Shown in pieces: positions 35,484-53,600 of a stretch of 56,889 bases of DNA. A model generated the notes under the pieces. The model ran no database searches, was not told the origin of the DNA, and saw only the letters and a list, made by a program, of their open reading frames with translations. The DNA is from Sphaerochaetaceae bacterium (lineage in GTDB: Bacteria; Spirochaetota; Spirochaetia; Sphaerochaetales; Sphaerochaetaceae). Every line of letters begins with the position of its first letter. Position 1 is the first letter of the stretch. The position numbers and the translations under genes were made by a program. The stretch spans positions 1 through 56,889 of the forward strand of contig JAQQAR010000002.1 in NCBI GenBank assembly GCA_028532765.1, in the 5' to 3' direction.

Positions 35484-35527
35484 GGCTCATTCTATAGGCT
35501 GTTTGTAGTGTTTGCTGAAAGGGTTAC

Positions 35528-36169
35528 CTACTCCCTGCTTCGCTTATAGGCATTTCTCTTGCGCCAGAGATGAGCGAACATGAACTTCTCTCCCTTGTTC
35601 CTGTCCTGTTTTTCCAGATATGCAAGGATTTTCCTGTGTTCTTCCTGGGTCTGTTTCTTTCCTAGGTTGCTGAGGCATTGGTAGAAAAGCAAGCTGTTCG
35701 TGTTCAGGTTCAACCTGCTGAAGGTAGTGAGAAGGATCTCGTTTCCTGAAGAGCGAACCATCTCCAGGTGGAATTTGAAGTGAAGGTCGCTGAATCGCAT
35801 TACATCACTCGGATCATCCATGTCGCACGTATCCATCTCATCGAGGATGGCACTGAATGGTGCAATATCTACAGCATGTTCACAGTTCAACCGGAAAGCT
35901 AGGCTTTCCAGGTATGTTCTGACCTCTGCAATGTGTTGGTAATCCTTGACCGTCAGTTCCTTCACATAGGACCCGCTCTGGGGGAGTACCGATACAAAGC
36001 CATCTTGTTCAAGGCGCTTGATTGCCTCCCTTACAGGGGTTCGGCTACAGTTGTATTCAACCGAGAGGGAGTTTTCACTAAGCTTGCTGCCAGGAATGTA
36101 CTCATTCCTCAGGATCTTATCCCTGATATCATGGTATATCTGGTCGATTATAACTGTCTTTGTTGCCAT
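35528..36169 (-). CDS. GntR-family regulator (FCD/FadR subgroup)
   Basis: 213 residues. The winged helix is at residues 8-70 (GSKLSENSLSVEYNCSRTPV then REAIKRLEQDGFV), followed by an FCD all-helical ligand domain (EVRTYLESLAFRL, DLHFKFHLEMVRSSGN with metal-binding Asp/His). Such proteins respond to organic or sugar acids. Divergent from the ABC operon at 36798, which carries an FCD-type operator; either this protein or the GntR at 43467 may bind it. The C-terminus (WRKRNAYKRSRE) is basic. Confidence 0.9.
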   Translation of the reverse strand: MATKTVIIDQIYHDIRDKILRNEYIPGSKLSENSLSVEYNCSRTPVREAIKRLEQDGFVSVLPQSGSYVKELTVKDYQHIAEVRTYLESLAFRLNCEHAVDIAPFSAILDEMDTCDMDDPSDVMRFSDLHFKFHLEMVRSSGNEILLTTFSRLNLNTNSLLFYQCLSNLGKKQTQEEHRKILAYLEKQDRNKGEKFMFAHLWRKRNAYKRSRE

Positions 36170-36178
36170 AATGTTCCT

Positions 36179-36206
36179 ATTCTACCACTGTTGTGGCCCT
36201 TCTCAA
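36179..36206 (-). promoter_or_regulatory. Possible promoter of the GntR gene
   Basis: Minus strand TTGAGA (complement of 36201-36206), 16-base spacer, TAGAAT (complement of 36179-36184). Transcription would start only 3-4 bases before the ATG at 36169, implying a nearly leaderless mRNA; the apparent AGGA ribosome-binding site would then not be transcribed, so an upstream promoter is also possible. Confidence 0.35.
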
Positions 36207-36726
36207 AGATGCTTAAATCAGAACAGTCTTTGTCTATAGATCATAGTAAACTGGAATACTAGAAAAATAATAGAAAGATGAGGGACAGAATCAGATTCGC
36301 CTCTGGTCGATTGTCTGTAACCTCTCACATAGATGTATATCCATCTACCAGATGCATGTTCTGGAAGGCTTGGTTCCTCAGCCTGCCTTCGTAGTTATAA
36401 GGATCCTCCTATGGACTTGTTCACTTCGACGGTGTATGTGTTCATTGGCCCGGTGGAGTAGGGGTTGCTTGAGACATCCCATCAGCTGGGTATCTATACA
36501 TTTGTCCTACAATTACTCGCTTTCTTAGTATGGTAAGGATATCCTTGGGTACAGAAAATGAAAAGAATCTAATACAAATCTTTCCTCGTCAGACCTGCTG
36601 TACAGCGTTGAGTACACAAACTAAAACTTTATAGATAAATAAATAATGTACTTGGTAAGAATAGAGAGTAAGTAGGCAATTTCTCATGTTTGGACTCTTT
36701 CCTGATGCATTTTCTGTAAAAAATGT
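36207..36726. other. Long non-coding interval, no gene recognised
   Basis: About 520 bases between the GntR promoter and the promoter of the peptide-type ABC operon. Reverse frames contain short protein-like pieces interrupted by stops (around 36280-36420), which may be decayed coding DNA, but I cannot name a family. The 3' part is AT-rich. No hairpin with T-tract was found. Confidence 0.4.
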
Positions 36727-36754
36727 TTGACAGATGAAATTTTCCGTTTAATAC
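36727..36754 (+). promoter_or_regulatory. Promoter of the permuted-binding-protein ABC operon
   Basis: Consensus TTGACA (36727-36732), 16-base spacer, TAATAC (36749-36754). The expected start is near 36761, inside the operator that follows. The leader would be about 37 bases and contains AAAAGGAG before the ATG. Confidence 0.7.
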
Positions 36755-36759
36755 TGACT

Positions 36760-36777
36760 TTGTAGTACAAACTACAA
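36760..36777. promoter_or_regulatory. GntR/FadR-type operator overlapping the transcription start
   Basis: TTGTAGT-ACAA-ACTACAA is a perfect 18-bp dyad (7-bp arms). It contains TTGTAGTACAA, which matches the FadR-subfamily operator pattern T-N-G-T-N3-A-C-N-A exactly. Placed just downstream of the -10, it would block RNA polymerase when bound. Candidate binders are the two GntR/FCD proteins at 35528 and 43467. Confidence 0.72.
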
Positions 36778-36797
36778 TATCGTAAAAGGAGATCAAT

Positions 36798-38453
36798 ATG
36801 AAAAAACTTACTGCAATTGTATTGCTGCTGAGCTTATGCTTGGGAGTATTCGCAGCAGGTACACAAGAGGTGGCACCTACTGCAGCCGCTTGGGAAGCCC
36901 AAGGCACTCCTTTGGCCGATGTGCGCATCCGCCAAGCACTCCGTCTGGCCATTGATATGGAAACCATTGTCGATGAACTGTTTGAAGGAAAAGCCCAGAG
37001 AGCAGTGGCAATGACCAGTCCTGGTTCATGGTTGGCCGATGGATTGGATCCTTATACCTACGATCCAGAGAAGGCAAAGGCTCTTCTGGATGAAGCAGGC
37101 TGGCCGAAAGACTACACCTTGGATGTCGTCTATTACTATGGCGACCAGCAGACTGTAGATTTGATGGCCATCATCCAGCAGTACTGGGCAGCTGTTGGCG
37201 TCAAGTCCTCATTCCGCAAACTGGAAGGTGACCTTGCCAGTCAGTTGTGGGTACCCCCTGCCGATCGCAAGAATGGTCCTTCAGCTGTGAAGTGGGACCT
37301 TGCCTATGCAGCAGTCGCAGCCTTGAGCGAGAACGAGTTCTACGACCGCTTTGAGAGTACTGCCAGCAACAACTCTTCCATTCCCTGGCAGGAAGGCCTG
37401 GATGAACTGGTACAGGCAACCCGCGCAACAGCTGATGTTGAGAAGCAGAAAGCAGCATTCAAGGCATTGCAGCGTGAGATCAATGAGAACATGTACAACA
37501 TTCCTTTGTACCACCAGCTCTCGTTCATCTACACCAGCAATAAGCTTGACATTGCAGGAAGTGATTTGGGCAACGACCAATTCAGCTTCAACAAGAACAT
37601 CCTTGACTGGAAGATCGACAGCAAGGACGGCATGATGTACACCAATGGTGGACCGATGGAGTTCTATGAAGCTCCCATGGTAAACCCTGGTCTCTACCTC
37701 TATCAGGAGCTGTTGTTTGACAAGTTGATCAACGCCGATGCAAACCTGACACCCACCGATGGCATGCTTGCAAAGAGCTACAGCGTAAGCCCCGACGGGA
37801 TGCAAATTACCTTTGACTTGCGCAGTGATGTGAAGTGGCATGACGGCGCAGCTTTCTCTGCGAAAGACGTCGTGTTCTCCATTGAGTACTTCCTCAAGAC
37901 CCCTGGTTTGAACGCCGTTGCACTCAATACCTTCAAGTCAATCAAGGGTGCTTCCGCCTACGTAGATGGCTCAGCTTCTTCGGTCAGCGGCATCAAGGTT
38001 GACGGTAACAAGGTTACCATTACCTTTGAGACCCTCGACCCCAATGCACTGCTTACCTTCAGTCAGTGGCCGATGCTCCCTTCCCATATTCTGAAAGGAA
38101 GCAACCCGGTGACATTCCAGCAGAATGCATTCTGGCAGAAGCCCGTGGGAACCGGTCCGTTCAAGGTAAAGGAAACTGTACTGGGTAACTATGCAATACT
38201 CGAGCGCAATGCTTCCTACTACCGAAGTGGAACAGGAAACATCAAGACCATCTTCATGCATGCCAGCAGTGAAAACGACAGCAACCTCGTGAAGAATGCC
38301 GAAAGTGGTCGAATTGACTACGCTTGGAGCAAGAGCGTCGCTGACTCTCTCTCCATCGAGAAGATTAGCCACATGACAGTGACTCCGGTAAACATCCGTT
38401 ATACGCGTGTGTTCTGGGTGAACCAATTCGCCCACCCTGCGAACATCAAGTAG
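36798..38453 (+). CDS. Circularly permuted family-5 (OppA/DppA-like) ABC substrate-binding protein
   Basis: 551 residues. Signal peptide at 1-20 (MKKLTAIVLLLSLCLGVFAA). Residues 38-272 match the half that is normally C-terminal in DppA/OppA: PLADVRIRQALRLAID, YTYDPEKAKALLDEAGW, the D-L-A-Y core, LVQATRATADVEKQKAAF and NIPLYHQLSFIY. Residues about 279-551 match the normal N-terminal half: LYQELLFDKLINADANL, SYSVSPDGMQITFDLR, VKWHDGAAFSAKDVVFSIEYF, KPVGTGPFKVKETVLGNYAI, LERNASYY, and ESGRIDYAW. The chain ends RVFWVNQFAHPANIK, exactly where normal proteins continue into DVRVRQAL. So the new termini lie at the start of domain III, and the old termini are joined near residue 273-279 without an internal signal peptide. 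Total length is normal, nothing seems lost. The four partner subunits downstream are intact, so it is probably functional. Confidence 0.9.
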   Translation: MKKLTAIVLLLSLCLGVFAAGTQEVAPTAAAWEAQGTPLADVRIRQALRLAIDMETIVDELFEGKAQRAVAMTSPGSWLADGLDPYTYDPEKAKALLDEAGWPKDYTLDVVYYYGDQQTVDLMAIIQQYWAAVGVKSSFRKLEGDLASQLWVPPADRKNGPSAVKWDLAYAAVAALSENEFYDRFESTASNNSSIPWQEGLDELVQATRATADVEKQKAAFKALQREINENMYNIPLYHQLSFIYTSNKLDIAGSDLGNDQFSFNKNILDWKIDSKDGMMYTNGGPMEFYEAPMVNPGLYLYQELLFDKLINADANLTPTDGMLAKSYSVSPDGMQITFDLRSDVKWHDGAAFSAKDVVFSIEYFLKTPGLNAVALNTFKSIKGASAYVDGSASSVSGIKVDGNKVTITFETLDPNALLTFSQWPMLPSHILKGSNPVTFQQNAFWQKPVGTGPFKVKETVLGNYAILERNASYYRSGTGNIKTIFMHASSENDSNLVKNAESGRIDYAWSKSVADSLSIEKISHMTVTPVNIRYTRVFWVNQFAHPANIK

Positions 38454-38468
38454 CAGTGTGGAATGGCA

Positions 38469-38497
38469 GGTGGCTGTGAGGTACACTCACAGCCATC
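38469..38497 (+). promoter_or_regulatory. Intercistronic hairpin after the binding-protein gene
   Basis: GGTGGCTGTGAG (38469-38480) pairs with CTCACAGCCATC (38486-38497), 12 pairs with one G-T wobble and a 5-base loop. It lies 15 bases after the binding-protein stop; TTCCTTCATTTTC follows. Likely mRNA stabiliser or leaky terminator that favours binding-protein synthesis. Confidence 0.65.
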
Positions 38498-38527
38498 TTC
38501 CTTCATTTTCTTCAAGAGGTTACAACT

Positions 38528-39487
38528 GTGATAGCATTCATCATCAGAAAATTCCTGCTGCTGATTCCCATGCTCTTGGTTATCAGCTTCCTCATCTTCC
38601 TTGGTATTGAACTCATGCCGGGTGATGCGGTCGATTTCATGATCCCCCCCGATGCACTGGCAACCATCAGCCCCGCTGAGCTGGATATCCTGCGTGCAGA
38701 ACTCGGACTTGACGACCCGTTCATGACCCGCTACGTCTCCTGGATAACCAATCTGGTGCAAGGCGATTTCGGCTATAGCCTGCAAAGTGGTGTTGCCGTC
38801 AGTGAGTTGCTGGCAAATACCCTTCCAGCTACCTTGGAACTGTCGATTGCAGCCCTCTTGATCTCCACCTTATTGGGGAGTTTGCTGGGTGTTGTCTCTG
38901 CCCTGAACAAGGGGCGTATTGGAGACAATGTACTTACCGTCGCCGGTATGGTGGGGGTGGCCATTCCCCAGTTCCTCTTCGGCCTCATTATGATTGTGCT
39001 CTTCGTATTCAAGCTGGGCTGGCTTCCGGTGGGTGGACGCATGACACCGGGCAATGAAGCGTTCTTCCAGCGTCTCGACCACCTCATCCTCCCTGCAATT
39101 GTCCTGGGTCTTTCGATGACAGCAGGTGTCATGCGCTATTCAAGGGCAAGCATGCTCGACTCCCTGAACAAGGAGTTCATCAAGACTGCACGCAGCAAGG
39201 GGCTGCCTGAGTGGCGGGTGAACCTGGTGCATGGACTGCGCGTGGCAATGACCCCGGTGGCCGTCCTCATCGGCTTCCGACTTCCCATGCTCATCGGCGG
39301 CTCGGTGGTAATCGAGCAGGTCTTCCAGTGGCCTGGGGTAGGGCAGATGTTCGTAGCTGCCGTACGCAGCCAGAACACGCCCATCATCATGATGGTTGCA
39401 TTCTTTAGTGTCCTTATTGTCTTGATCGCCAGTATCCTGGTCGATATCGCTACTGCCTTGCTCGATCCCCGAGTCAAGCTCTCCTAG
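38528..39487 (+). CDS. Peptide-type ABC transporter permease, DppB/OppB family
   Basis: 319 residues, GTG start with AAGAGG upstream. About six membrane helices; the first (FLLLIPMLLVISFLIFLGIE) and the following GDAVDFM...LGLDDPFMTRYVSWITNLVQGDFGYSL block are standard for DppB. The EAA loop is EFIKTARSKGLPEWRVNLVH, and the C-terminus VDIATALLDPRVKLS is canonical. It pairs with the next permease 9 bases downstream. Confidence 0.94.
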   Translation: MIAFIIRKFLLLIPMLLVISFLIFLGIELMPGDAVDFMIPPDALATISPAELDILRAELGLDDPFMTRYVSWITNLVQGDFGYSLQSGVAVSELLANTLPATLELSIAALLISTLLGSLLGVVSALNKGRIGDNVLTVAGMVGVAIPQFLFGLIMIVLFVFKLGWLPVGGRMTPGNEAFFQRLDHLILPAIVLGLSMTAGVMRYSRASMLDSLNKEFIKTARSKGLPEWRVNLVHGLRVAMTPVAVLIGFRLPMLIGGSVVIEQVFQWPGVGQMFVAAVRSQNTPIIMMVAFFSVLIVLIASILVDIATALLDPRVKLS

Positions 39488-39496
39488 GAGGCCCCT

Positions 39497-40411
39497 ATGG
39501 CAAACAAAGCGCTGCAACGCAAAATGGATCGCCTTCTCATTCTCGAGGAACAAGGCAAGCTCTTCTCTTCCAATACCAGCCGTACCCTGCGTAAACTCGC
39601 CGCCAATCCCTTGGCAATTATTGGACTGGTTCTCTTCGTTCTCATGTTCCTTGCCTGTATCGCGGCTCCCCTGATCAGCTCCTACGGGCCGAATACCATC
39701 GACCTGCGCAACCGTCTCGTCCCTCCCGGGGAGGGGCATCTGCTCGGAACCGATCAGATCGGGCGTGACATCTATACTCGTATTCTCTATGGCGGACGTA
39801 TCTCCATCTTTGTGGGACTCGGCTCAGCTCTGGGAGCAGCGCTCATCGGAGTCTCTCTGGGCACCTACGCCGGGTACCGACGAGGGATGCTCGATGCCAC
39901 GGTCATGAAGGTGAGTGAGATCATGATGAGCTTCCCCCAGATCATTCTGGTCTCCATTTTGGTAACCATCGTGGGGCAGAGCCTCTGGAACCTCATTCTG
40001 ATCTTCATCCTTACCGGATGGCCAAGCATGTACCGTATGGCCCGTTCTCAGATGCTCAGTATTCGGGAGCAGGAGTACATCCAAGCCTTGCAGGCATTCG
40101 GGATCAGCAAGTTCGTGATCAGCTTCAAGCATATGCTTCCCAATGCCATCGGTCCCATCTTCGTCAACATTACGCTCTCCACTGCGATGTTCATCCTACA
40201 GGAAGCAGCCTTGAGTTTCCTTGGTCTTGGTGTTCCCCTGGAGCAGGCTACCTGGGGAAACATCCTCAACGTTGCCCAGGACCTCAACATCCTGCGTGAT
40301 GCGTGGTGGGTATGGCTCCCAGTTGGTTTGGTCATTACCATCTTTGTCATGGCCATTAACTTCATCGGTGACGGTTTGCGCGATGCTGCCGACCCCACTC
40401 AGGTAGGTTGA
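39497..40411 (+). CDS. Peptide-type ABC transporter permease, DppC/OppC family
   Basis: 304 residues. Cytoplasmic N-terminal segment, then six predicted helices; LLGTDQIGRDIYTRILYGGRIS is the highly conserved periplasmic/cytoplasmic entry motif of DppC, the EAA loop is EYIQALQAFGISKFVISFKH, and it ends FIGDGLRDAADPTQVG. An AGGAGGCCCC ribosome-binding site precedes the ATG. One base separates it from the ATPase gene that follows. Confidence 0.95.
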   Translation: MANKALQRKMDRLLILEEQGKLFSSNTSRTLRKLAANPLAIIGLVLFVLMFLACIAAPLISSYGPNTIDLRNRLVPPGEGHLLGTDQIGRDIYTRILYGGRISIFVGLGSALGAALIGVSLGTYAGYRRGMLDATVMKVSEIMMSFPQIILVSILVTIVGQSLWNLILIFILTGWPSMYRMARSQMLSIREQEYIQALQAFGISKFVISFKHMLPNAIGPIFVNITLSTAMFILQEAALSFLGLGVPLEQATWGNILNVAQDLNILRDAWWVWLPVGLVITIFVMAINFIGDGLRDAADPTQVG

Positions 40412-40412
40412 T

Positions 40413-41420
40413 ATGGAACAGAATGTCGTACTGGAAGTAAAAGACCTATGTGTCAATTTTTATACCAACCAGCGGTGCAACAAGGCACTGCGTAATGTCT
40501 CCTTCTCCATGAGGAAAGCCAGGACACTCTGTATTGTGGGTGAGTCGGGCTGTGGAAAGAGTGTAACAGCCAACTCCATCATGCAGCTGCTCCCTGAGCT
40601 CAGCCGTATAGAGAATGGTACCATCACCTACTATGGAGCGGAGGGCCCTGTCTCCATTGAAAGCCTCAAACGCAACGGGCGGGTCATGCGAGGCCTCCGA
40701 GGACAGGAGATCGCAATGATCTTTCAGGATCCCATGACTGCGTTGAACCCGGTGTTTACCGTAGGGTTCCAGATTGATGAGATGCTGCGCAACCACAAGC
40801 CCCTGAGCAGGAAAGAGGCAAAAGAGAACTCCATCCGCTTGCTCAAGGATATGGGAGTCCCTCTTCCTGAGCAGCGGGTACATGAGTATCCGCACCAGTA
40901 CTCCGGAGGCATGCGACAGCGTGCCATGATCGCCATGGCCATGGCGTGTGAGCCGAAGGTGCTCATCGCCGATGAACCTACCACTGCCCTGGATGTGACC
41001 ATCCAGGCCCAGATCTTCGAACTCATGCTTGCCCTCAAGCGTGAGAAGGAGATGGCAATTCTCCTGATCACCCACGATATGGGAGTGGTTGCTGAGATGG
41101 CTGACGATGTGGCGGTGATGTATATGGGCAACATTGTGGAGAGTGGGACGGCCGAACAGGTGATGGCCTCTCCCTCCCATCCCTATACCAAAGCTCTGCT
41201 TGAGTCCATTCCCGTGCTGGGCAAGGGGAAGAACCAGAAGCTGGAGCCCATCAGGGGTACCACCCCTGACCCGTACAACCGTCCAGTGGGGTGCCAGTTT
41301 GCTCCTCGCTGCGACTATGCCACGGAGCAGTGTCGTCAGGCCATGCCTGATGAGACCAACATCGACCAGGACGGACACATGGTCCGCTGCTTCAACTACA
41401 AGGAGCTGCTCAATGGCTGA
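40413..41420 (+). CDS. Peptide-type ABC transporter ATPase, DppD/OppD family
   Basis: 335 residues. Walker A GESGCGKS at 43-50, signature YSGGMRQRAMIAMA, Walker B VLIADEPTTALD, and a C-terminal oligopeptide-transporter extension with three to four Cys (GCQFAPRCDYATEQC) that binds an Fe-S cluster in some homologues. It pairs with the next ATPase. The last 8 bases overlap the start of that gene. Confidence 0.95.
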   Translation: MEQNVVLEVKDLCVNFYTNQRCNKALRNVSFSMRKARTLCIVGESGCGKSVTANSIMQLLPELSRIENGTITYYGAEGPVSIESLKRNGRVMRGLRGQEIAMIFQDPMTALNPVFTVGFQIDEMLRNHKPLSRKEAKENSIRLLKDMGVPLPEQRVHEYPHQYSGGMRQRAMIAMAMACEPKVLIADEPTTALDVTIQAQIFELMLALKREKEMAILLITHDMGVVAEMADDVAVMYMGNIVESGTAEQVMASPSHPYTKALLESIPVLGKGKNQKLEPIRGTTPDPYNRPVGCQFAPRCDYATEQCRQAMPDETNIDQDGHMVRCFNYKELLNG

Positions 41421-42438
41421 GAATCGTGAAGTTCTGATGAAAATAGAGAACCTGAAGACCCACTTCCCGGTGAAGAAGGGAGTCTTCAAGCGGACCGTCG
41501 GGCACGTGAAGGCCGTCGACGGGGTGAATCTTGAGATCTATCGGGGCGAGACGCTGGGAATAGTTGGTGAGTCAGGGTGTGGAAAGACCACCTTGGGTAA
41601 ATCGCTCTTGCGTCTTACCCAACCAACCGAGGGCAAGGTCACCTATGCATTTCCTGACGGGAAGAAGGATGTACTGCAGCTCAAGGGATCTGAGTTGGAT
41701 GAAGCCCGTAAGCGCCTCCAGATTGTCTTCCAGGACCCGTACTCCTCCTTGAATCCCTCCTTTACCATTTTCGGTTCCTTCAACGACCCGTTGAAGAAGT
41801 TCGGGGTGAAGAGAAAGAAGGAGCGTGAGGATTTGGTTGCCCGCCTGCTTTCTGATGTCAATCTTCCCCGCGACTACATGACCCGGTATCCCAATGAGTT
41901 CAGTGGAGGGCAGCGACAGCGTATCGGTATTGCACGTGCTCTTTCGGTGAATCCTGAGTTGATCGTCTGTGACGAGGCGGTCTCCGCCCTTGATGTTTCC
42001 ATCCAGGCACAGGTGCTGAAGTTGCTCAAGAAATTGCAGGCTGAACGCAACCTTACCTATCTCTTCATCACCCATGACCTGTCGGTTGTGGAGTACATTG
42101 CCGACCGCATCGCGGTTATGTACCTGGGCAAGGTGGTGGAGCTTGCTTCCACCGAGGAGTTGTTCAAGCACACTACACACCCCTACACGAAGGCGCTGCT
42201 TTCAGCAATCCCCATTGCTGATATCACCAAGAAGAAGAAGCGCATTCCCCTGCAGGGGGATGTGCCATCTCCGGTGAATCCACCCTCGGGCTGTCCGTTC
42301 CATCCACGGTGTTCGTTCTGCCAGGAGCGGTGTAAGCAGGAAGTACCCCAGTTGCGACCGCTTTCCATCGATGGGTCCACCCACTATGTAAGTTGTCACT
42401 TTGGCGAGCAGTTTGCCGCAGGCAATATCCCTTCATGA
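41413..42438 (+). CDS. Peptide-type ABC transporter ATPase, DppF/OppF family
   Basis: 341 residues from the ATG at 41413, which has AAGGAG upstream and overlaps the previous gene by 8 bases; the frame is open much further 5' but that part lies in dppD. Walker A GESGCGKTT at 52-60, signature FSGGQRQRIGIARAL, Walker B LIVCDEAVSALD (Ala in place of the usual Pro-Thr pair, as in many DppF), and the C-terminal CPFHPRCSFCQERC motif. It completes the transporter. Confidence 0.95.
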   Translation: MAENREVLMKIENLKTHFPVKKGVFKRTVGHVKAVDGVNLEIYRGETLGIVGESGCGKTTLGKSLLRLTQPTEGKVTYAFPDGKKDVLQLKGSELDEARKRLQIVFQDPYSSLNPSFTIFGSFNDPLKKFGVKRKKEREDLVARLLSDVNLPRDYMTRYPNEFSGGQRQRIGIARALSVNPELIVCDEAVSALDVSIQAQVLKLLKKLQAERNLTYLFITHDLSVVEYIADRIAVMYLGKVVELASTEELFKHTTHPYTKALLSAIPIADITKKKKRIPLQGDVPSPVNPPSGCPFHPRCSFCQERCKQEVPQLRPLSIDGSTHYVSCHFGEQFAAGNIPS

Positions 42439-42464
42439 GTCATATTTTCAAGGAGTCTACTACT

Positions 42465-43400
42465 ATGCATACAAAATCCAGTGTTTCACACATCAAGGGT
42501 GTCATCCCTGCAATGTTCAGTACGTTCGATGAGAACGAGCAACTCGACCTGAAGCGTGCCCGCGTCCTGGTCGATTATTTGATCGGGGAAGGGGTGCACG
42601 GTCTCTATATTACCGGCAGTACCGGGGAAGGGTTCCTCATGAGTGATGAGGAACGCAAAGCGTTTGCCCAGGCTGTGGTCAGCCATGTGAATAAGCGTGT
42701 GCCGGTCATCGTACATGTGGGGGCTATCGGGACATTGAGGAGCATTGACTTGGCAAGCCATGCACAACAGATTGGGGCCGATGCCATCAGCAGCGTTCCC
42801 CCGTTCTACTACCACTTCAGCGGCGATGAGATCTACCGCTACTACAGTGATATCTCCTCTGCCGTCGATCTTCCCATGATTGTCTACAACATCGCCCTCG
42901 CCGGATTGATGGACAATTCATTGGTCCTTCGCCTTGCTTCCATCGATGGGGTGTGCGGGTTGAAGTTCACTGGAACCCAGCACCATGACATGGCTACGCT
43001 CAAGGGAGAACTTGGTCCCGATTTCATGATCTATTCCGGTTGCGATGAGATGGCAACTCAGGGATTGCTTGCCGGCGCTGATGGGATTATTGGTTCCTTC
43101 TACAATATCATTCCCGATACGTTCGGAGAAATCTATCATCTTTGTCAGCAAGGGAAGTATCAGGAGGCATTCGAGATCCAGAAGATTGCCACCAGTTTCA
43201 TTCTCAAGGCTGTCAAGCACGGCCATTTTGGTGTCATGAAGCAACTTATGATGGATACTGGCATTGATGTCGGGTATGTGCGTCGTCCCTTTGTCCATCC
43301 CGATAGCCAGGTTATGGATGAGGTATGGTCCTTCCTTGATACGCTCCAGCAGACCCATGGAGATATCCATATGGGGTTTGTGTCCAAAAGGAGAAAATAG
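42465..43400 (+). CDS. nanA: DapA/NanA-family aldolase, N-acetylneuraminate lyase-like
   Basis: 311 residues. The 2-keto-acid-binding GSTGEGFLMSDEERK, the FYYHFSGDEIYRYYSDI segment (typical of sialic acid lyases rather than dihydrodipicolinate synthases), VYNIALAGLMD with the catalytic Tyr and GLKFTGTQHHDM with the Schiff-base Lys are all in order. Likely cleaves N-acetylneuraminate or a related 2-keto sugar acid to pyruvate. The ATG at 42465 has AAGGAG 9 bases upstream; an ATG at 42435 overlaps the ATPase stop but lacks one. Family-5 binding proteins import sialic acid in the Sat system of Haemophilus ducreyi, so the operon may do the same. Confidence 0.83.
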   Translation: MHTKSSVSHIKGVIPAMFSTFDENEQLDLKRARVLVDYLIGEGVHGLYITGSTGEGFLMSDEERKAFAQAVVSHVNKRVPVIVHVGAIGTLRSIDLASHAQQIGADAISSVPPFYYHFSGDEIYRYYSDISSAVDLPMIVYNIALAGLMDNSLVLRLASIDGVCGLKFTGTQHHDMATLKGELGPDFMIYSGCDEMATQGLLAGADGIIGSFYNIIPDTFGEIYHLCQQGKYQEAFEIQKIATSFILKAVKHGHFGVMKQLMMDTGIDVGYVRRPFVHPDSQVMDEVWSFLDTLQQTHGDIHMGFVSKRRK

Positions 43401-43405
43401 CTCGA

Positions 43406-43434
43406 TTGAAAAGAACGGTATAGTTGGTTATTAT
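43406..43434 (+). promoter_or_regulatory. Promoter of the second GntR gene
   Basis: TTGAAA (43406-43411), 17-base spacer, TATTAT (43429-43434), both close to consensus. It starts 6 bases after the lyase stop and allows independent expression of the regulator. Confidence 0.6.
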
Positions 43435-43466
43435 AAGGGAATTTAGGTTGGAAAGTAGGAAGTGGC

Positions 43467-44150
43467 ATGAAGAATCTGAAGAACAAGAAACTGTATTTGC
43501 AGGTCTATGAGGAACTCCGTGGGTATATTGTGCAGAACAATCTACGCCCTGGGGACAAGCTTCCGACTGAGATGGAGATGGCTTCCGCCCTTGGTGTCTC
43601 GCGCAATGTGCTGCGTGAGGCGATCAAGACGTTGGAGATCATCGGGGTTGTCTCAAGCAAGCCCGGGGTAGGAATAGTCGTCAACAGTTTCAATTCCAAC
43701 TTTCTCTCCAGTGTCATTTTCCTGAATCTTATCGGGGATGATGTAGATTTGGTCAGCCAGTCCCAGCAGGTACGCAAGGTCCTGGAGTTGGGCTTCGCTC
43801 GCGAGAGCTTCGACTCCATGACCAATGGGCAGATTGCTGAGCTTGAGAAGATTCTCAGTACGATGAAAACGGCTGACAGTCATATTGATTTCTATACCTT
43901 GGATGCCAACTTCCATAAGGTGATATTGAGGAATATCAAGAACGATGTGCTTATTGCCTTTGTCGATTCTGCCTGGAGCTGTGACCGCTACTACCGCTCC
44001 AAGTTCATCGACGATGGCAATCTCCGCTATGACAAGCACAAGCGTATCCTCGATGCCCTCAAGGCCCGTGACTTTGAGGCGTTTGAGGCAGCACTTATCT
44101 ACCACTTCTCTTACAACTTCAAGGAGTCGATCGGGGTCAGGGAGGCGTAG
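43467..44150 (+). CDS. GntR-family regulator (FCD/FadR subgroup)
   Basis: 227 residues. Winged helix at 8-72 (LRPGDKLPTEMEMASALGVS, RNVLREAIKTLEIIGVVSS), then an FCD domain with metal-ligand residues in TLDANFHKVILR and the C-terminal HKRILDALKARDFEAFEAAL. It follows the lyase gene and is the best candidate for the local regulator that binds the operator at 36760-36777, with a sugar acid as effector. That pairing is inference; the GntR at 35528 is the alternative. Confidence 0.92.
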   Translation: MKNLKNKKLYLQVYEELRGYIVQNNLRPGDKLPTEMEMASALGVSRNVLREAIKTLEIIGVVSSKPGVGIVVNSFNSNFLSSVIFLNLIGDDVDLVSQSQQVRKVLELGFARESFDSMTNGQIAELEKILSTMKTADSHIDFYTLDANFHKVILRNIKNDVLIAFVDSAWSCDRYYRSKFIDDGNLRYDKHKRILDALKARDFEAFEAALIYHFSYNFKESIGVREA

Positions 44151-44564
44151 GATAGGAGGGGCATGCGTTCGCATCGTTACAGCTTCGATACTATCACTAC
44201 ATGAAATAACCGAGAGTCAAATTCCGTAAGAAGAATTCTATAAGTCTCATATTGAAAACCTAGCGTCACGTTATTTGGATGGTTCTTGTTTCGTCTTCCT
44301 TCTCGAAATCCGATCTAGCTCTTGCTGAATGGAGTAATTTCTTCAATTACCCTTGGATTATTCCACACTCTTGAGACAGCATCTTGTAATTGTATTGCTT
44401 TATGACTATTCAACCCTTGATGGAAAAGGTTCTCGGTTCTGAGTCCGAGGTATGTCGGTTGAAATGATGGTACAAATTGCACAATTTTCTTGAAAATATT
44501 GAACAGAAGTGAGGGTATTTCATTGTAAAACCTTAAAAGCAATAAGTTGTGAGAAGAAGATCTG
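44151..44564. other. AT-rich interval, probable remnant DNA
   Basis: About 410 bases with no convincing gene. A 75-codon minus-strand frame (44315-44542, TTG start, no ribosome-binding site) has a protein-like composition but matches no family I know, so it may be a decayed fragment. The sequence ends abruptly at the truncated lyase copy near 44570, suggesting a past insertion/deletion event. Confidence 0.4.
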
Positions 44565-44930
44565 TTGCAGATGCCTCTTGATGAGATGGCACTCTCTAGT
44601 CTGGCCTATGGTAGTGATGGCCTTATCGGCAGCTTCTACAATGTCATTCCAGAACTGTTCATTGGTCTCTATAATGCATATAAGAGAGATGACTGGGAAC
44701 AGGCTAAGCTCTTGCAGCGCCAGGCTGATGCCATCATCTTCTGTGTCCTAAAGTATCCCATGCATGCAAGCATGAAGTGTATGCTCAACTGGATTGGTTG
44801 TGATGCAGGAACCGTGAGAAAACCTTTCTCTTCACTTGATGGTGAAGCGGAAAAGAATCTCAAGAAAGAACTCCGGATAATTCGTGATGCGTATGGCATC
44901 AAGGACGTAGCGGTATTGGAAGCGCTCTAA
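44565..44930 (+). pseudogene. 5'-truncated second copy of the NanA/DapA-type lyase
   Basis: The frame encodes about 118 residues that align to the C-terminal third of the lyase at 42465: DEMALSSLAYGSDGLIGSF against DEMATQGLLAGADGIIGSF, then FYNVIPE against FYNIIPD, and AGTVRKPFSSL against VGYVRRPFVHP. The first two-thirds, with the GSTGE motif and both catalytic Tyr and Lys, are absent, and I see no start signal of its own. The homology begins near 44580. The remnant differs enough in sequence to be an old paralogue rather than a recent duplication. Confidence 0.78.
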
Positions 44931-44958
44931 CAATCCCTTCCTAGATTTGTTTGGGTAT

Positions 44959-44988
44959 CCCCCAGTTGTGTGAGTACACAATTGGGGG
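44959..44988. terminator. Strong hairpin between convergent genes
   Basis: CCCCCAGTTGTGT (44959-44971) and ACACAATTGGGGG (44976-44988) form a 13-position stem with one G-T wobble and a 4-base loop. It lies between the lyase remnant (plus) and the 855-residue protein gene (minus) and may end transcription from both sides; neither side has a long T-run. Confidence 0.55.
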
Positions 44989-45039
44989 AATTTAGTAAGG
45001 AATGTAAGAACGTCTCTTCGTTTGTATTACTATTATACT

Positions 45040-47607
45040 CTATTTCCTGAATACACCCTTGATCGTCAGAGAAGTTGTCAGGGAATCTTCAGTGTTGTCT
45101 TGCAAAGAATCATAATACTCTGTCTTTAGTGATGCTGATGCCACGAACATCCCGAATTGTTTATCTAGTTCAAATCCTCCAGATACTCGATAAGCCTCGA
45201 GTGATGACTTGAAAGCTTGGTCAAGAGAAGCACTGATACGTACAGTATTAAAGAACGTATCCTTGATCGAAAGAGACGAGTCATAGCCATAAGTAATCAA
45301 GCTATCATCTTCAGTGCTCCAGGCTTGGTCAAAACCAAGGGAGAGCACATAGCGATCGAATCCTAAACTGTTGGTCAAGGCATACGAGTACTCAAAGAAT
45401 GATGTATCAGAATCTACACCATCAATACGTGATTGTATTACATAGGAATCCTTTGTTTGAGCCCCAACATTTGTTGAAATGGGACCAATTTTGTATTGCC
45501 CACTTCTCCATCGGGCTTCACCCGTATGGGTAATTGTTACATCATTTTTTGTAGAGGTAAGAATCGAGGATTCAACCGTATTGTTGGGGGCCTTTTCTGC
45601 AAGTTTTTCTGCAGTGTTGGTTGCAAACGTAAACGAATAATTCACACTTACAGTACCAAGAAGCTTGCTCTGAGGTGTATCAAACCCAACTTGTGCAGTA
45701 TGTAGAATGGTAGAGATATCGTTAGCAGAAACGGTGCTCGTAGATAGAAGATCAGGTTTTACCAAAGCAATAATGTCATTGAAGAGGATATCTGCAATGG
45801 TATCTTTATCGTATGAGTACCCTCCTCGTACCATAAAGTCCCCAACGCTCTTTTCAGAGAATACCCCAAATGTGAAGATGTCTGTTTCCACGGATGAGCC
45901 AAGGCTTCTAAATGCAGCATCTGTCTTTCGAACCCAAGCTTCTATTCCAAGGGAAGGAATGGTCATATCAACTCCGTAGCTGATACCCCACAAATCCTTG
46001 TCGACAATTCCCGCAATCAATCCATTGGAGGGTAGGAAGTAATCCAACACTGGGAATATTGCGTGCACTGTATCGATATAATCGATATAGGAGTCAAGGT
46101 TAGGGCCTCCTTGGGATTCCAAGTCACTTGCTAGCTGGTTTACATCGAGAATGGTGCTTGCATCCTGGTTGTACAGAGAAAAGGAGAAGGACGCATCAAT
46201 CGTAAACGTTTTGGTGTGAACACCTGTTCCTAGTCCCATGACCATATTCTGGTCAGGAGGGGTAGTGAGCACATCATACAGTTCCCCAATCTGAGAGGTT
46301 GCACCATTTTTCTTGAGCTCAGTATACCGACCCTGAAGTGCGCTAATAAAGGAAAGATTTGTTTGGAAATACCACAATTCCTTAGCTTTTACTCCTACTT
46401 GGAAACCAAGGAAGTTTTTCGGCCATGCTACTTGATATAGTCCAAGATCTGTAAGGCCTTTTCCTACTTTCATCTCAAAGAAGGGGAGATCTATTGCCAA
46501 AGCAGTTCCTCTGAACCCCAATTTATTGATGGTCTCCGGCTGGAAATTGAGTTCTTGGTCTCCAAAAGTATAGGTAATGATGGGGTCAAAGAACGAGACC
46601 TTCAGCAATAATCTGTTATCATTCTCATACTTTCTTGCTATCTCTCCTGTGTAATCAAATTCATTTGCGAAGTTGAGAGGATTGTACAAATTCAGGATAT
46701 TTTGAAGATCAGCCACTAGTGTGTTTGGGTAGGCCTCAAAGATTTCTTCTACCGAAATTGAGTCACTCAAGCTAGCTGCCACTTGGAGGGAGATCGGCCC
46801 TGCCTTAAGGTAAGTGTCACCTCCAAGTTCATAACTTACATTCAATTGATGGTTCTGATCAGCAAACACTGTTGGAACATCCAGAGTCTTTTCACTCTCC
46901 CCCAGACCAAGTATGTATTCGAGTTCAATACTGCTTTGATACGAGGCATCAGCGACAAAGACTGGAGCTTTCTTTGCTCCTATCTTGAAGCGATACTCCT
47001 CCGTGCTTGTGTTCTCGTATCGGTCCTTCATGGAAACTGTAACCACACTTTCTTCTTGCCCAGTAGGTTTTACCAAGAAAGAAAGGTACTGTCCAAAGGC
47101 TCCTGAGTGAATTGCTTCTTGCCCATCAATTGTAATAGAAAAACTTGATAGGGCACTCTCGTCCTCTATCTCAAAGACAACCAACTGTTGTTCTTCCGCC
47201 ACCAAATCAAAGGTAGTTGGGGACACGAGCTTCAGCGTTGGTGGGGTGATGTCCTGAATCAGACGGACTTTTTCTGTTCCTATTTGTGGTGTGCGGTAAA
47301 CCGTTCCCTCTGTATTTTTCATTACTGAGAAATACGTCAGTTCCTCTCCCGTCAGGTATGTATAGGGAACCTTTGCTATCCACTCATCCCGCTCAGGCAT
47401 GAACTCAGAGTAGAGAGGTTCCCTTGCTCCTGTTTGGTAGAAGAAGAACCGAGCTTCAGAAATGGTGCCTTCACTCTGTGCTGGTATGAGTTTGACCATA
47501 AGGTTGCGATAGGCAGGAATTTCCGTTGGGATGTCGACATTCAGAGCAAACAAGGAGGAACTTATTAAGATGCTTACCAATAGTATTATTAAATATTTCT
47601 TCATCAT
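45040..47607 (-). CDS. Large exported envelope protein, probable outer-membrane beta-barrel with N-terminal Ig-like part
   Basis: 855 residues. Signal peptide (KKYLIILLVSILISSSLFA). Residues 25-220 look like Ig-type beta-sandwiches (DITPPTLKLVSPTTFDLVAE; SITIDGQEAIHSG). Residues 225-855 are dominated by alternating hydrophobic/polar strands with many Tyr, Phe and Gly (for example FFEMKVGKGLTDLGLYQVAW and VGVKAKELWYFQTNLSFISA), as in spirochaetal porin-like barrels, ending TTSLTIKGVFRK. I recognise no named family. It begins 8 bases after the stop of the giant Ig-repeat gene, so the two are cotranscribed and probably work together at the outer membrane. Confidence 0.75.
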   Translation of the reverse strand: MMKKYLIILLVSILISSSLFALNVDIPTEIPAYRNLMVKLIPAQSEGTISEARFFFYQTGAREPLYSEFMPERDEWIAKVPYTYLTGEELTYFSVMKNTEGTVYRTPQIGTEKVRLIQDITPPTLKLVSPTTFDLVAEEQQLVVFEIEDESALSSFSITIDGQEAIHSGAFGQYLSFLVKPTGQEESVVTVSMKDRYENTSTEEYRFKIGAKKAPVFVADASYQSSIELEYILGLGESEKTLDVPTVFADQNHQLNVSYELGGDTYLKAGPISLQVAASLSDSISVEEIFEAYPNTLVADLQNILNLYNPLNFANEFDYTGEIARKYENDNRLLLKVSFFDPIITYTFGDQELNFQPETINKLGFRGTALAIDLPFFEMKVGKGLTDLGLYQVAWPKNFLGFQVGVKAKELWYFQTNLSFISALQGRYTELKKNGATSQIGELYDVLTTPPDQNMVMGLGTGVHTKTFTIDASFSFSLYNQDASTILDVNQLASDLESQGGPNLDSYIDYIDTVHAIFPVLDYFLPSNGLIAGIVDKDLWGISYGVDMTIPSLGIEAWVRKTDAAFRSLGSSVETDIFTFGVFSEKSVGDFMVRGGYSYDKDTIADILFNDIIALVKPDLLSTSTVSANDISTILHTAQVGFDTPQSKLLGTVSVNYSFTFATNTAEKLAEKAPNNTVESSILTSTKNDVTITHTGEARWRSGQYKIGPISTNVGAQTKDSYVIQSRIDGVDSDTSFFEYSYALTNSLGFDRYVLSLGFDQAWSTEDDSLITYGYDSSLSIKDTFFNTVRISASLDQAFKSSLEAYRVSGGFELDKQFGMFVASASLKTEYYDSLQDNTEDSLTTSLTIKGVFRK

Positions 47608-47615
47608 GGTCCTCC

Positions 47616-50600
47616 TTATCGGCCACTCTCAGCGTTTGCTCCAAGAAAGGAGTTCATCTCATCTTCAATCATGCTACTTGGGGGAGCACCTCCTGCTCCT
47701 GGGCCAAATGGGTCAGGAATTTCAGAAGGTAAGAATGTATCTATTGGCCTACCTAGATCGAAGTACTCTGTCTCTGCTTGCTCTTCCTCTTGTTGACCAG
47801 AGGGAGCTGCACTATCTCCTCCTTCCTCTTGAGAACCACTGGGTTCCTGATCATTAGATATTGCGGCTACTTGGGTCTGTTGCTCTTGTGGCTCATCTGC
47901 TTCGGGAAGTCCAATAATCTGCACCATTTTCAGTGCATTCGCAATCGATCCATCTTTGCCGACAACCTGTACAGCAATGATATGCTCACCACCACTGAGA
48001 TTTGGATGGTTGGCAAATGAGAGTATGTTCCCAACGTCTATAGAACCATTTAGGTGAGAACTCCAGGTGAAGGACTCAGGCGCAAGAACCGTACCATCCC
48101 TGTCTGTTCCCTTAGCAGTTAGTGTAACATCGGCTCCTCCTCGCACTACTAAGAGCTCATCACCTCCTTCTATAGAGACTTCTATTTGCTGGAGTACCTG
48201 CAGCGTGATGGTATTGCTGGCAAGCAGCTGTTCTCCATTATATGCCTCTACGGTGATTGATCGACTTCCTGCCTGCAAGTCAGCCTCACCGAGGTCGAGC
48301 ATTGCCCCAGTTCCAATGGGTTCTGTTGATAGGTCGCTCTTCCAGAATATCTTGTCTACTCCCTCGAGGTCAGAGGTGTCAGCAGTAATCTGTACGGTAT
48401 CAACGGTCTTATCAAAAATCTCAGGAGCACCTACAATATAGATCCCTTTTGGCTTTTCATAGAGATTTATACTGGTCTCTGACTCCTTGAACACACCTTC
48501 TTCCAAAGTGCTAACCGTGATAAGATAGACGCCTTCTCTTCCAAACTGATTGGCTGGAATGGTGGTTTTTGCAGTTCTGGCATCATCACTCAGTTCCCAA
48601 GTTACAGAGCGCACAATCTCGTTGATTGTGATACTTATTGCGGGCTCGGTAAAACCAGTCATGGAAAGCATCACATCCACATCTTGACCAACCCGGTAAA
48701 TAGTACTTGCAACTGGATCAAGTATTTCCAGCGTCGCATCAGAGGTTAGCTGTAGAGGAATATCTTTTCGCAAGATTTCAGTTCGCTCTTCACCGAGCAT
48801 TGTCCTGTCACTCAGGATCATGGACACAATGGCAGGTTCTCTCTGGAAATCCTTCAATTCCTCATAGGCAAAGGAAGAAACTAAACCTTGTTTTTCAAGG
48901 ATTTTGTTTCCTTGTCTGATTTGCCAGGATACCTGCGGGCTTCTCCCTCCTGTGAAGGAAACTGACATTGGCAGAGCAGGAGCATCTTCACTTATCAGAT
49001 AGGTGGGGAGTCCATCATTCACTGCTACTGTCACTGCCTGGACTGCATCATAGAATTCAATAGAAACAGCATCTCTTCCTGAGAGTTGGAAATCGTCTGT
49101 GGCTTTTGCATTGATGTGCATGATTCCCGGATTTGTGGAAGTATAGATCAAAGGATTCCCTTCCCCAATCAAGGTCCCATCATCCATTGACCATGTAACC
49201 GTTCCTGTATAAGTTTGATCATCTATTACATTTGCTGAGAGGATCAGCGGGGTACCTGTCTTGTATGCGTCTCCATCGGCAATGCTTGTGATGGAAACAG
49301 AAGGCTCAGTATTTACCTTGAACTCAACAGATGCTTGTTCGCTTCTTTCTTCAATATGATAGACAGCTGAGAGAGTATACGTCCCACTATTGCTGGGCGC
49401 AACCATCTGTGTGGCATCTTCAACAGGGAACCCTGCAAGATACCAGTTCAGTTCCCCTTCCTCCCAATTATCCGGCAATCCCTGTAATGTAGGAATCAGT
49501 GGAGTCCCTGCATTGACGATACTTCCGTGCGGCCAATTGATATTCAGATAGATAGGTTCGTTTTCTATACTCAGGAGTATTTGCTTTCGACCTCTCTCCC
49601 TGCCATTTGTGTCGGTGAACACGAGGCCTACCAAAACAGACCCTGTAGCTTCACTCGTGAACATTGCTTGCTTCGTTTGGAAGGTTTTCTTCGGAATACT
49701 CGGATCATCCAGATACTGGACTGTCCATGTATACGTTCCTTCCTCTCCTTGAGATAGAGATGCGAGGAGTGGGATTTCGAATCCTTTGTAATAGGTTGCA
49801 CCTTCTTGAGGAGATAACAACTCCAAGGGTAGTGTAGTCTCAACAACCTTGAAGCTTGCAAGCTGGGTAGTGGTAGCTCCAAGCGAGTCTGATGTGCTTG
49901 CGACCAGCGTATGAGCACCTACATCCTTGCTGGAAAGCTCACGCGGATTTCCGCCAGAGAGTGTAAGGCCATCAAGGGCAAAGGTTATGGCTTGGTTAGT
50001 TGTCTGATCTTCACTATCACTTGCTGCTGCGGTCCAATTGAGCATGTCACCGGTGTACTGTATTTCAGGTACTGACAACATCAAGGAAGGCGGGGTGTTT
50101 CTATCAAGGAAGAAACTCAGCAACTGCTGTTTACTCCTTCCAAATGCAGATGTGACCAATTTCAGCTGAATCTCGCCTTCGTATCCATTTGGATTAAAGT
50201 TAGCTTCAGGCCCTATCGCCACAATCTCATTGTTATGCATCCAATGGTATGTTGCCCCAGGTTCTCCCTTTGCGGAAAGTAAGATAGTGCTTCCATCTGC
50301 ATAGAGAATGGTTTGTCCGTTCTTGGGATAAGTAATCTGGGGTGAGGCAATATCCCGAACAGTGATGGTTCTTGAAGAAGTGGTGCGGACCATCTCATTA
50401 TGGTCATACTCACTATAAATCGTGTAAGTCCCTGGATTCTCTGCATCGAAGAGATAGGAAATTCCATTTTTATTGGTGCTGGTATTATTCACATACCACG
50501 TTATATGTCTTGCAGCATCAGTCACATTTACAGCAGAGCCTATTACCTTGTCTACACCAGCGAGGAAAGAAACGGAGGTGCCTACTACTGTTTCCATGGA

Positions 50601-53600
50601 TTTGACAGGTTGTAGGAGATCGAGTTGGAAATCACTCTGTATTTCAACCGATATTTGTTCGGTTTTAATATTTCCCAGCACATCCTCGGCACTGACACTG
50701 ATGGTATGTTTTCCTGGTTCCAATTTTCCAAGATTCACCGTTGTGTAATTGCTGTTTGGTACGACTCGGTTGTCTATACGCCATGTCAGACGGTTGATCT
50801 TACCCGTCAGTACTTCTGTACGAGCTATCACATTGACATCAGGCGATATTCTCTGTGCATCAGTAGGAGAGATGATAGCCAGTTCGAGGGGTTTGTACAC
50901 GTTGATCGGTTTATATGCTACGCCTCCACGATCGAAAACATCAGAGGAATATATCTTAAGCATATGGTTCCCTTCGATGAGAGACGATAGGGTAAACATT
51001 CGATTAACAGGATTCCCATAATTCCGTCTGTTATATGTATCATCAATATAAAGTGTTAATTGGTTCAGTAAATCCCTTGGATCCTCTCTGCTCGTATTTG
51101 CACGAACAACAAAGCTTTGGCCTTCGAGAACCTCATCAGGTGCATCAATCGAAAGGACGCGTTGTGTTTCCACAATTTGGATATCACGGCGTGTCTCATT
51201 GCTATTCATAGATGGACGATAGTCTTTCAACGTGCCTTCAGGTAGACGTACTTGACTTGCATATCCTTGCAATTCAATGGTATGCATTCCTATCGGTAAG
51301 GAGATTGAGTTGCTCGAAGAAGGACTCCCGTCGATAATCCACTCGACTCTATCAATGTCGCGAAAACTATAGGAGAGGTAGAGTTTTGATCCAAGAGGGT
51401 AGAAATTCTCATAGCCTCCCTTAGGGGTATTCATCGCATAGAACGGGTTGATGATTCTGAGATTAAATGTCTTGTCCAAGGTAATACCATTACGTTTACC
51501 CCGTGCAATGAGTGTCAAGTTTTTCTGGGTTGTTGAAGGCCGTAAGGTATATTCAGGACCGCTTCCTACCTCTTTGCCATTCAAAATCCAAGTAAATGTT
51601 TCATCGGCCTTCCCATGTGCCGTGAGACGGTAATCAAGGCCTGCAATGATTCGATCGTTATTCTTAATGATATCCACCTCAAATTCTGGAGGTGTTTTAT
51701 CTTTTGCGATGGAGAATGAGATGGTATGGGGTGGTGTCCTTTGCAGTTCGGTCTTATCGCTTACGTTATAAAGTCCTTCGATCGATAAAGAATATTCGCC
51801 GCTTTCCAAGGCAACCCAATTGAACGTATTGGGGATTGCCTCCCCGTTTAAAGTCAAGGCATATGATTTGATATCTTGTTGTTGGATTATAGGTTGCTCT
51901 ATTTGTTTAAGCGAAACCTCCTCGCCATCCTTGGGGAAAGCTATGGATACCTGTGGGTCAAAAAGACTTACAGTCCATTCATGGCTGTCGGTTCTACCAT
52001 ACTTATCAGAAATAATTGCCTGGACTGTATACACACCTTTTCCATAATTCTGTAGTTGTAATGTCTCTCCCGCAATCTGGCGAATGGGTATTCCCTTCTG
52101 GTCATATATATTCCATTTAGTAATATCCATCTCATAACCGTCAGAGGTGGTAAGAGAAAATTGTACCGGGGTATGTATCGTTTGACGTACCACATCTTCT
52201 GTTGGGGCATATGAAGTAATCTTGGGTGGCTCGTCACTGTAGATGGTTACCTTCACTTCTTCAGATACACCTTCATATACCTTGTAGTTGCCGTTCTCAT
52301 CTGCTGCACCTATACTCCATCCTGCCTGTATGGTGTGTTCTCCAACTTGGGGGATGTTCTTGTTCCAATAATTGAGTTTTTCTCCATCGATAATCCAGAA
52401 TAAGCTTGCATTTTCTGTAGTGCTTGCAACGATAGGGATATATCCAGAGGAAGGAATGTCTGAAGTTTCTGGAGGGTTGATAAAGACGGTAGGATCAATT
52501 TTACGTACCGATGTTGATACTGTCTTTTCCATGTTATCTTGGTTCTTTGCTGTGTATCTAATGGTTAAAATTGAAGGCATGTCCTTTGTAACCGTAAAAG
52601 TGTTGGAGGCAAGCCTGGTTCCATTCAATTCCCAATAACTTTCAGTAATAGGGGATGTGCTTGATACATCAGCTTCGAGCGTGTAGGTAACTCCTCTCAT
52701 GAGGCGGGTGTTATATGCTGGGAAGCGTAATTGGATTTCTGGGGGTCTTATATCGCGGACGAGGAACTGGATAGGTTCGGTATCTTTTGTATGAAGAACC
52801 TGATTTCCTGTTTTATCAACAACCGAGTAAATTGCTCTTGCAAAGACTGTATGATTACCAAGACCAAGGTTTCCAAAAATTAACCGATCTGAGAGCAGTT
52901 CCTTTCCGTCAACGAAAAATTGAATCTCTTTTGCATTTGTAGCTGAATAGGAGATTGCATGGGTTGAATCCAATGGGAAATTCTTTCCTGCATCAATATT
53001 GGTAATACGTACTTCTGGATCGATGACCAATATGCGAGCTGATGCGGTCCCTGCTTCATTATAGATGTCGGTGACTGTCTGTGTGATGATATATTCCCCC
53101 GTCTTTGAAGGGGAGAAGGTGGCTTGTGTAAGCGTTGAACCTAAGTTTCCTGATTCTGGGCCAGTATAGCTCCATTGTATAGACTTGATCTGGTTGTCAT
53201 TCTGGACTGCTGAATAGATGTCTAGCGTTGAGCCCAGGAGCATCTGGATGGAGTCTTCAACATTGAGCAGTGATACAATTGGTTCAGTTCCAATTACTGT
53301 AATCTGTTGAGGTGCGGACTCCAATTGTTTTGTGTTTCCTAGATAATCGGGGGTGCTTTCTCCCTTTGCGACTACGGAGAATACCCCGCTGGTATCACAG
53401 TTGTAAGCTACTGTTGATCCTGTGCCAATTTGTTTATCGTCAAGGTACCATGATATCGACTGATAATGTCTGCTTTTCTTAGGGTCTAGGGTGAATATCA
53501 CGGTTGCTTTTTTCTTTGCATCCCTTACAGGTTCTCCTTGGATTGCAAGTTGAGGTTGGTGTACCGTGAGATAGATATTTTCTGAATTCTTGCTCATGTT

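Follow-up and report, generated by a model that had tools for sequence, protein, structure and literature searches.

A conserved spirochaetal gene predicted to encode a circularly permuted family-5 substrate-binding protein of an ABC importer

The window, that is, the whole stretch of 56,889 nucleotides analysed here, comes from a Sphaerochaetaceae bacterium whose genome assembly is a draft of 93 contigs. At positions 36798-38453 (+ strand) it carries a gene for a 551-residue substrate-binding protein of family 5 (SBP_bac_5), predicted from profile and PDB matches to be circularly permuted. A GntR/FCD-type regulator (35528-36169, - strand; NCBIfam) is encoded divergently upstream. Downstream, between the binding-protein and permease genes, the sequence contains a perfect 9-bp inverted repeat, GGCTGTGAG-GTACA-CTCACAGCC (38472-38494, +), a putative element that possibly sets the ratio of binding-protein to permease expression. 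Four transporter genes follow on the same strand: a DppB/OppB-type permease (38528-39487; NCBIfam Opp2B and Opp4B, under the equivalog cut-offs), a DppC/OppC-type permease (39497-40411; Opp4C at 321.6 bits, with a cut-off of 350), a DppD/OppD-type ATPase (40413-41420; NCBIfam) and a DppF/OppF-type ATPase (41413-42438, with its start at 41413 or 41437; ORF list and NCBIfam). With two permeases and two ATPases, the segment 38528-42438 has the composition of an ABC-importer operon, as do the orthologous loci, and DppBCDF-type genes, 57-75% identical, adjoin the permuted gene wherever the locus is long enough. The transporter genes are followed by those of an N-acetylneuraminate-lyase-like aldolase of the DHDPS family (42465-43400, +; NCBIfam and PDB matches) and of a second GntR/FCD regulator (43467-44150, +), for which the nearest NCBIfam model is NanR, with a score under the cut-off.

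Several other features surround this gene set. Downstream of the second GntR gene, a remnant of another lyase/DHDPS-family gene (44580-44897, +) shares 33% identity with the 42465-43400 product over residues 194-299 of the latter, and it is present too in G110, a genome of this species assembled in one contig (L053 17127-17489). Farther along, an exported protein of 855 residues (45040-47607, -) is encoded next to a very large exported protein of 2469 residues (47616-55025, -) with many repeats that look Ig/PKD-like. On the other side, where the window has 35 bases (35493-35527), G110 holds a block of about 5.2 kb (L053 2851-8089) with a GntR gene, FAD oxidoreductases resembling parts of glycerol-3-phosphate dehydrogenase and further genes, as well as a second copy of window positions 35528-35695 (168 bases, at L053 6749-6916).

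The binding-protein gene forms one open frame; it has an RBS-like sequence, AAAGGAG, and, as read from the sequence, its product starts with a signal peptide. The original prediction, made from the letters of the window alone, described in this frame a signal peptide, then the half that is C-terminal in ordinary family members and finally the half that is N-terminal, and both its motifs and its coordinates proved right. PF00496 (SBP_bac_5) is the only Pfam family that matches the protein, and it does so in two stretches of inverted order (223 bits, cut-off 32.4). Residues ~38-150 match profile positions 212-328 and residues 323-542 match positions 5-207; at the DNA level, 36903-37244 corresponds to positions 210-328 and 37764-38426 to positions 5-208. 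The first half of the protein is therefore the second part of the profile and the second half its first part, as had been anticipated, and the claim of a normal length with nothing missing or doubled also holds, since at the cut the profile passes from 208 to 210 with almost no position lost or repeated. The exchange of the halves in silico, proposed earlier as a check, turned the two stretches into a single one over positions 5-328 and raised the score from 223 to 238 bits. A phmmer search against the PDB returned the same inverted pair of matches for 8upi, 4oet, DppA (1dpe) and others, and the chain end of 8efz (residue 497) coincides in the alignment with position 276 of the permuted protein, meaning that the normal C-terminal tail is present. 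The source genome encodes three more family-5 proteins; these have the normal order, each being matched in one stretch that spans nearly the whole profile. Judged by these comparisons, the 551-residue protein is almost certainly a family-5 binding protein that has undergone circular permutation.

The same arrangement recurs in other spirochaetes. Among the genomes of the order, a full-length permuted gene was found in 10 of 139 (the source included), at 44-100% identity. An alignment of ten permuted members, every one of which matches PF00496, was used to build a profile (A2), and across the class this profile located the gene in 16 of 395 genomes belonging to groups f1, f3, f12, f18, f68 and f74. 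Five genomes of a sample drawn evenly from the phylum carried it, among them G378 (family group f12) and G229 (f3). Beyond the close relatives, the further genomes show 41-72% identity and cover six family-level groups of Spirochaetia. The half order is also the same at four public loci (73-98% identity), namely a contig of Sphaerochaeta sp. S2, at 98%, and, at 73-86%, three contigs from MAGs of related spirochaetes. Taken together, the permuted members of 19 genomes have pairwise identities down to 40% and nonetheless share the start of the rotated part, the join and the end: the motif P-L-[AS]-D-x-R-[VI]-R-[QK]-A stands near the start in 19/19, and all finish at the same hinge strand. The expectation that orthologues in related spirochaetes would keep the same half order was thus borne out. 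An exact-peptide scan of all species gave matches in spirochaetes only; among plasmids, 1,581 weakly similar records cover both halves (E 1e-5), and the two that were checked have the normal order.

The neighbouring genes offer some indication of the ligand. For the 42465-43400 product, the best NCBIfam model is N-acetylneuraminate lyase (NF003164) at 245.9 bits, a score that does not reach the cut-off of 281, with DapA at 147 bits, and the top PDB matches are N-acetylneuraminate lyases. In the alignment with the E. coli lyase, it keeps the Lys that forms the Schiff base, the catalytic Tyr and the glycerol-pocket pair of Asp and Glu. An N-acylglucosamine 2-epimerase is encoded near the permuted gene in five relatives (L054, L059, L060, L080 and L081), and NagA in one of them (L060). 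These lyase-like, NanR-like, 2-epimerase and NagA neighbours suggest a sialic-acid-like ligand, and the chances that sialic acid or a similar keto-sugar acid is the ligand at this locus can be put at about even. In other relatives, the neighbours are, by names given from sequence, a sulfatase-like protein, a URO-D-like protein, a glycyl-radical enzyme or a distant aldolase; the aldolase neighbour is 27-36% identical in some, with none seen in others. Given such variable aldolase, sulfatase and glycyl-radical neighbours, the ligand may differ between lineages. Proteins resembling BNR-repeat sialidases are encoded near the permuted gene or a normal-order relative (L083 16255-17325; a - strand ORF near the end of L021).

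The strongest of the competing views is that the permuted protein binds peptides, as the DppA and OppA names imply. It agrees with the transporter parts, which are closest to Dpp/Opp models in NCBIfam, but not with the linkage of the lyase-like aldolase and amino-sugar genes to the operon in several lineages. Moreover, in DppA the peptide amino group is bound by the peptide-site residue Asp408 (PMC8566422), which is not conserved: in a weak local pairwise alignment it falls on Val173 of the permuted protein, a position variable among orthologs. This substitution makes a peptide ligand appear less likely, and the peptide reading as a whole is rather unlikely.

Regarding the origin of the permutation, the two halves were placed in separate trees. 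The permuted proteins form one clade in the N-half tree (support 100/99) and also lie on one side of a branch in the C-half tree, with weak support (50/66). In both trees the nearest normal-order proteins are those of G387, G443 and G021, and the fact that the two halves have the same nearest relatives favours the permutation of one protein, with a single origin, over the fusion of two. In a fusion, the domain III half and the domain I/II half would derive from two different family-5 proteins. Halves of paralogs could recombine, the C-half tree on its own backs the permuted clade weakly and in some members the N-half has diverged further than the C-half (G229: 39 vs 57%); however, the shared relatives, the permuted grouping of both halves and a profile that continues from 208 to 210 without loss or doubling render such a fusion improbable. 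The permutation of a single protein probably took place once in Spirochaetia. The presence of the gene is patchy and its tree mixes family-group codes, indicating that transfer or loss has occurred.

The permuted gene may have arisen perhaps by gene duplication followed by trimming, and would then have spread by descent and transfer. A tandem duplication with loss of the outer halves, as originally proposed, remains plausible, although the flanks hold no remnant and no intermediate was found. Searches for remnants of the lost halves upstream (36169-36797) and downstream gave none, and the two new ends, compared at the DNA level for a possible trace of duplication, were no more alike than shuffled sequence; neither signal is expected at the present divergence.

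The permuted chain runs in the order signal, linker, domain III, old domain I tail, short linker, domain I start, domain II and domain I middle. The signal peptide (residues 1-20; 36798-36857, +) reads as type I (...GVFA-AGTQE), not as a lipobox, and precedes a new N-terminal linker (residues 21-37; 36858-36908, +), which is variable among the orthologs in alignment A2. Residues 38-242 (36909-37523, +) hold the old C-terminal part, which by alignment with OppA and DppA corresponds to domain III and would be a contiguous N-terminal domain, given that the chain is opened at the border of domains I and III. Next comes what used to be the C-terminal tail of domain I (residues 243-276; 37524-37625, +), ending in ...NILDWKIDSK; its limit was set by 8efz, whose chain ends there, and by normal-order relatives, in which the chain ends a few residues past the same W. 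Comparison of the rotated proteins with these relatives places the join of the old C-terminus to the old N-terminus in a linker of ~4-8 residues around DSKDGMMY (37617-37640, +). The old N-terminal part (residues 282-551; 37641-38450, +; Pfam profile 5-208; stop at 38451-38453) comprises the first segment of domain I, domain II and the middle segment of domain I, and ends at the old I-III hinge strand. Signal peptides are of type I in most permuted members, the exception being the G229 protein (L056 8824-10497), whose lipobox, VVLGC, makes it a probable lipoprotein. Lipoprotein anchoring as a general cause of the permutation is unsupported, because most members have type I signals and only that of G229 has a lipobox.

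The position of the cut has consequences for the hinge. In OppA, domain III consists of residues 270-486 and domain I of residues 1-44, 189-269 and 487-517 (PMC6305025). Positions 33-242 of profile A2 align to OppA 276-485, and positions 34-245 to DppA 269-481. On the OppA alignment, the cut maps to the domain I-III border, opening the loop that precedes D-V-R-x-R-Q-A, and the earlier view of an opening at the edge of domain III is thereby upheld. In normal DppA, the hinge between domains I and III is made of two strands (PMC8566422). With the I-to-III strand open, only the III-to-I connection should stay covalent, and the main structural prediction is thus that the lobes should be tied by one covalent hinge strand, where there are normally two. 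The AlphaFold model of the 551-residue protein, built from its sequence and those of four orthologs, was uninformative (mean pLDDT 37.9), leaving homology as the basis for the fold. Because a single strand would tie the lobes, one chain could conceivably lend its domain III to domain I/II of another, giving a domain-swapped dimer or other intermolecular assembly. Yet the remaining III-to-I connection is normal and has normal spacing, so that a swap is not forced, and the permuted Treponema pallidum protein TpMglB-2 is a monomer that binds glucose (PMC4990184). An intermolecular arrangement therefore appears improbable as well, by a shade more than the fusion.

The last possibility, that the inverted order is an artefact of the draft assembly or that the gene is decaying, can be practically dismissed, as misassembly is ruled out by independent assemblies with the same order in 19 genomes, including the one-contig G110, which is collinear with window positions 35528-45100 (99.56% identity over 9573 bp), and decay is contradicted by a dN/dS of about 0.04 between the window gene and its 98% relative. 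This ratio is low in both halves, and the permuted gene is under strong purifying selection. The claim of a natural circular permutation is accordingly backed by the order of the profile matches, by the swap test, by purifying selection and by conservation across six family-level groups, and the permuted form is old, conserved and selected in Spirochaetia.

In summary, the locus very probably encodes a functional permuted periplasmic binding protein that works with a DppBCDF-type ABC importer of its own. Once exported, its N-terminal half would fold as an uninterrupted domain III, and the chain would cross a single time to domain I by way of the old C-terminal tail. The short linker would then lead to the old N-terminus, domain II would be built and the chain would return to domain I, coming to its end where the old strand into domain III used to start. 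In this manner, the second hinge strand would be present yet open-ended. Ligand binding should still close the protein, as in the rest of family 5, and it should dock on its own permeases. A sialic acid or similar keto-sugar acid, the most likely ligand, would be split inside the cell by the lyase-like enzyme of the operon. It is somewhat probable that such proteins represent a first subclass of family 5/Cluster C, for which the name "Cluster Cc" is suggested, old and stably inherited, with one open hinge strand, closure and docking through a single hinge and an independent domain III.

Family-5 proteins are among the commonest nutrient receptors of bacteria, and a conserved permutation that cuts the hinge provides a natural test of whether the closing motion needs two covalent hinge strands. 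It also exemplifies how evolution can re-open the chain of a large protein in which one domain is discontinuous. Profile-based annotation calls the permuted proteins ordinary, which makes the class easy to miss.

DppA, OppA, AppA and NikA (family 5/Cluster C, PF00496) have in common with the permuted protein a profile covering both halves, the length, the signal peptide and a DppBCDF-type operon. They differ from it in that its halves are swapped, its chain opens at the I-III border and its old ends are joined by ~4-8 residues; proteins of the DppA/OppA type have two hinge strands, whereas one is predicted here. All solved family-5 proteins that match the permuted protein have a single chain order, and no PDB chain matches profile A2 across the join, the PDB holding no permuted family-5 chain. 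The nearest normal-order relatives in Spirochaetia (L020/L061, L022 and L021) are about 25-33% identical per half and have ordinary termini; DppBCDF-type genes with 46-59% identity come after the gene at L061, as at the permuted locus. SatA of Haemophilus ducreyi (PDB 5z99), the sialic-acid receptor of the SatABCD ABC importer (PMC11364026), has the same domain by sequence and possibly the same kind of ligand, but the normal order. Orthology with SatA was rejected, the 5z99 match having an E of 0.002 over a 72-residue stretch.

No natural permutation within family 5 is described in the searchable papers, a coverage outside which most subscription journals lie. The earlier statement that no natural case was known in this family consequently stands, in those papers and in the PDB. 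Among substrate-binding proteins at large, permutation has been seen before: the closest precedent is TpMglB-2 (Tp0684) of T. pallidum, a crystallographically proven natural permutation of Type I/Cluster B, termed "Type Ic/Cluster Bc", which is a monomer and binds D-glucose (PMC4990184). Both are natural permutations of spirochaetal ABC substrate-binding proteins. In TpMglB-2, however, the C-terminus has taken up the first three strands of the N-lobe and there is an additional, fourth crossover, whereas in the family-5 protein one of two crossovers was opened; the latter also has no MglB-type homology, its only matches being to PF00496. The family-5 protein would hence be a second permuted binding protein in spirochaetes, with another fold class and another cut, and this second case makes the question of why spirochaetes tolerate permutation a testable one.
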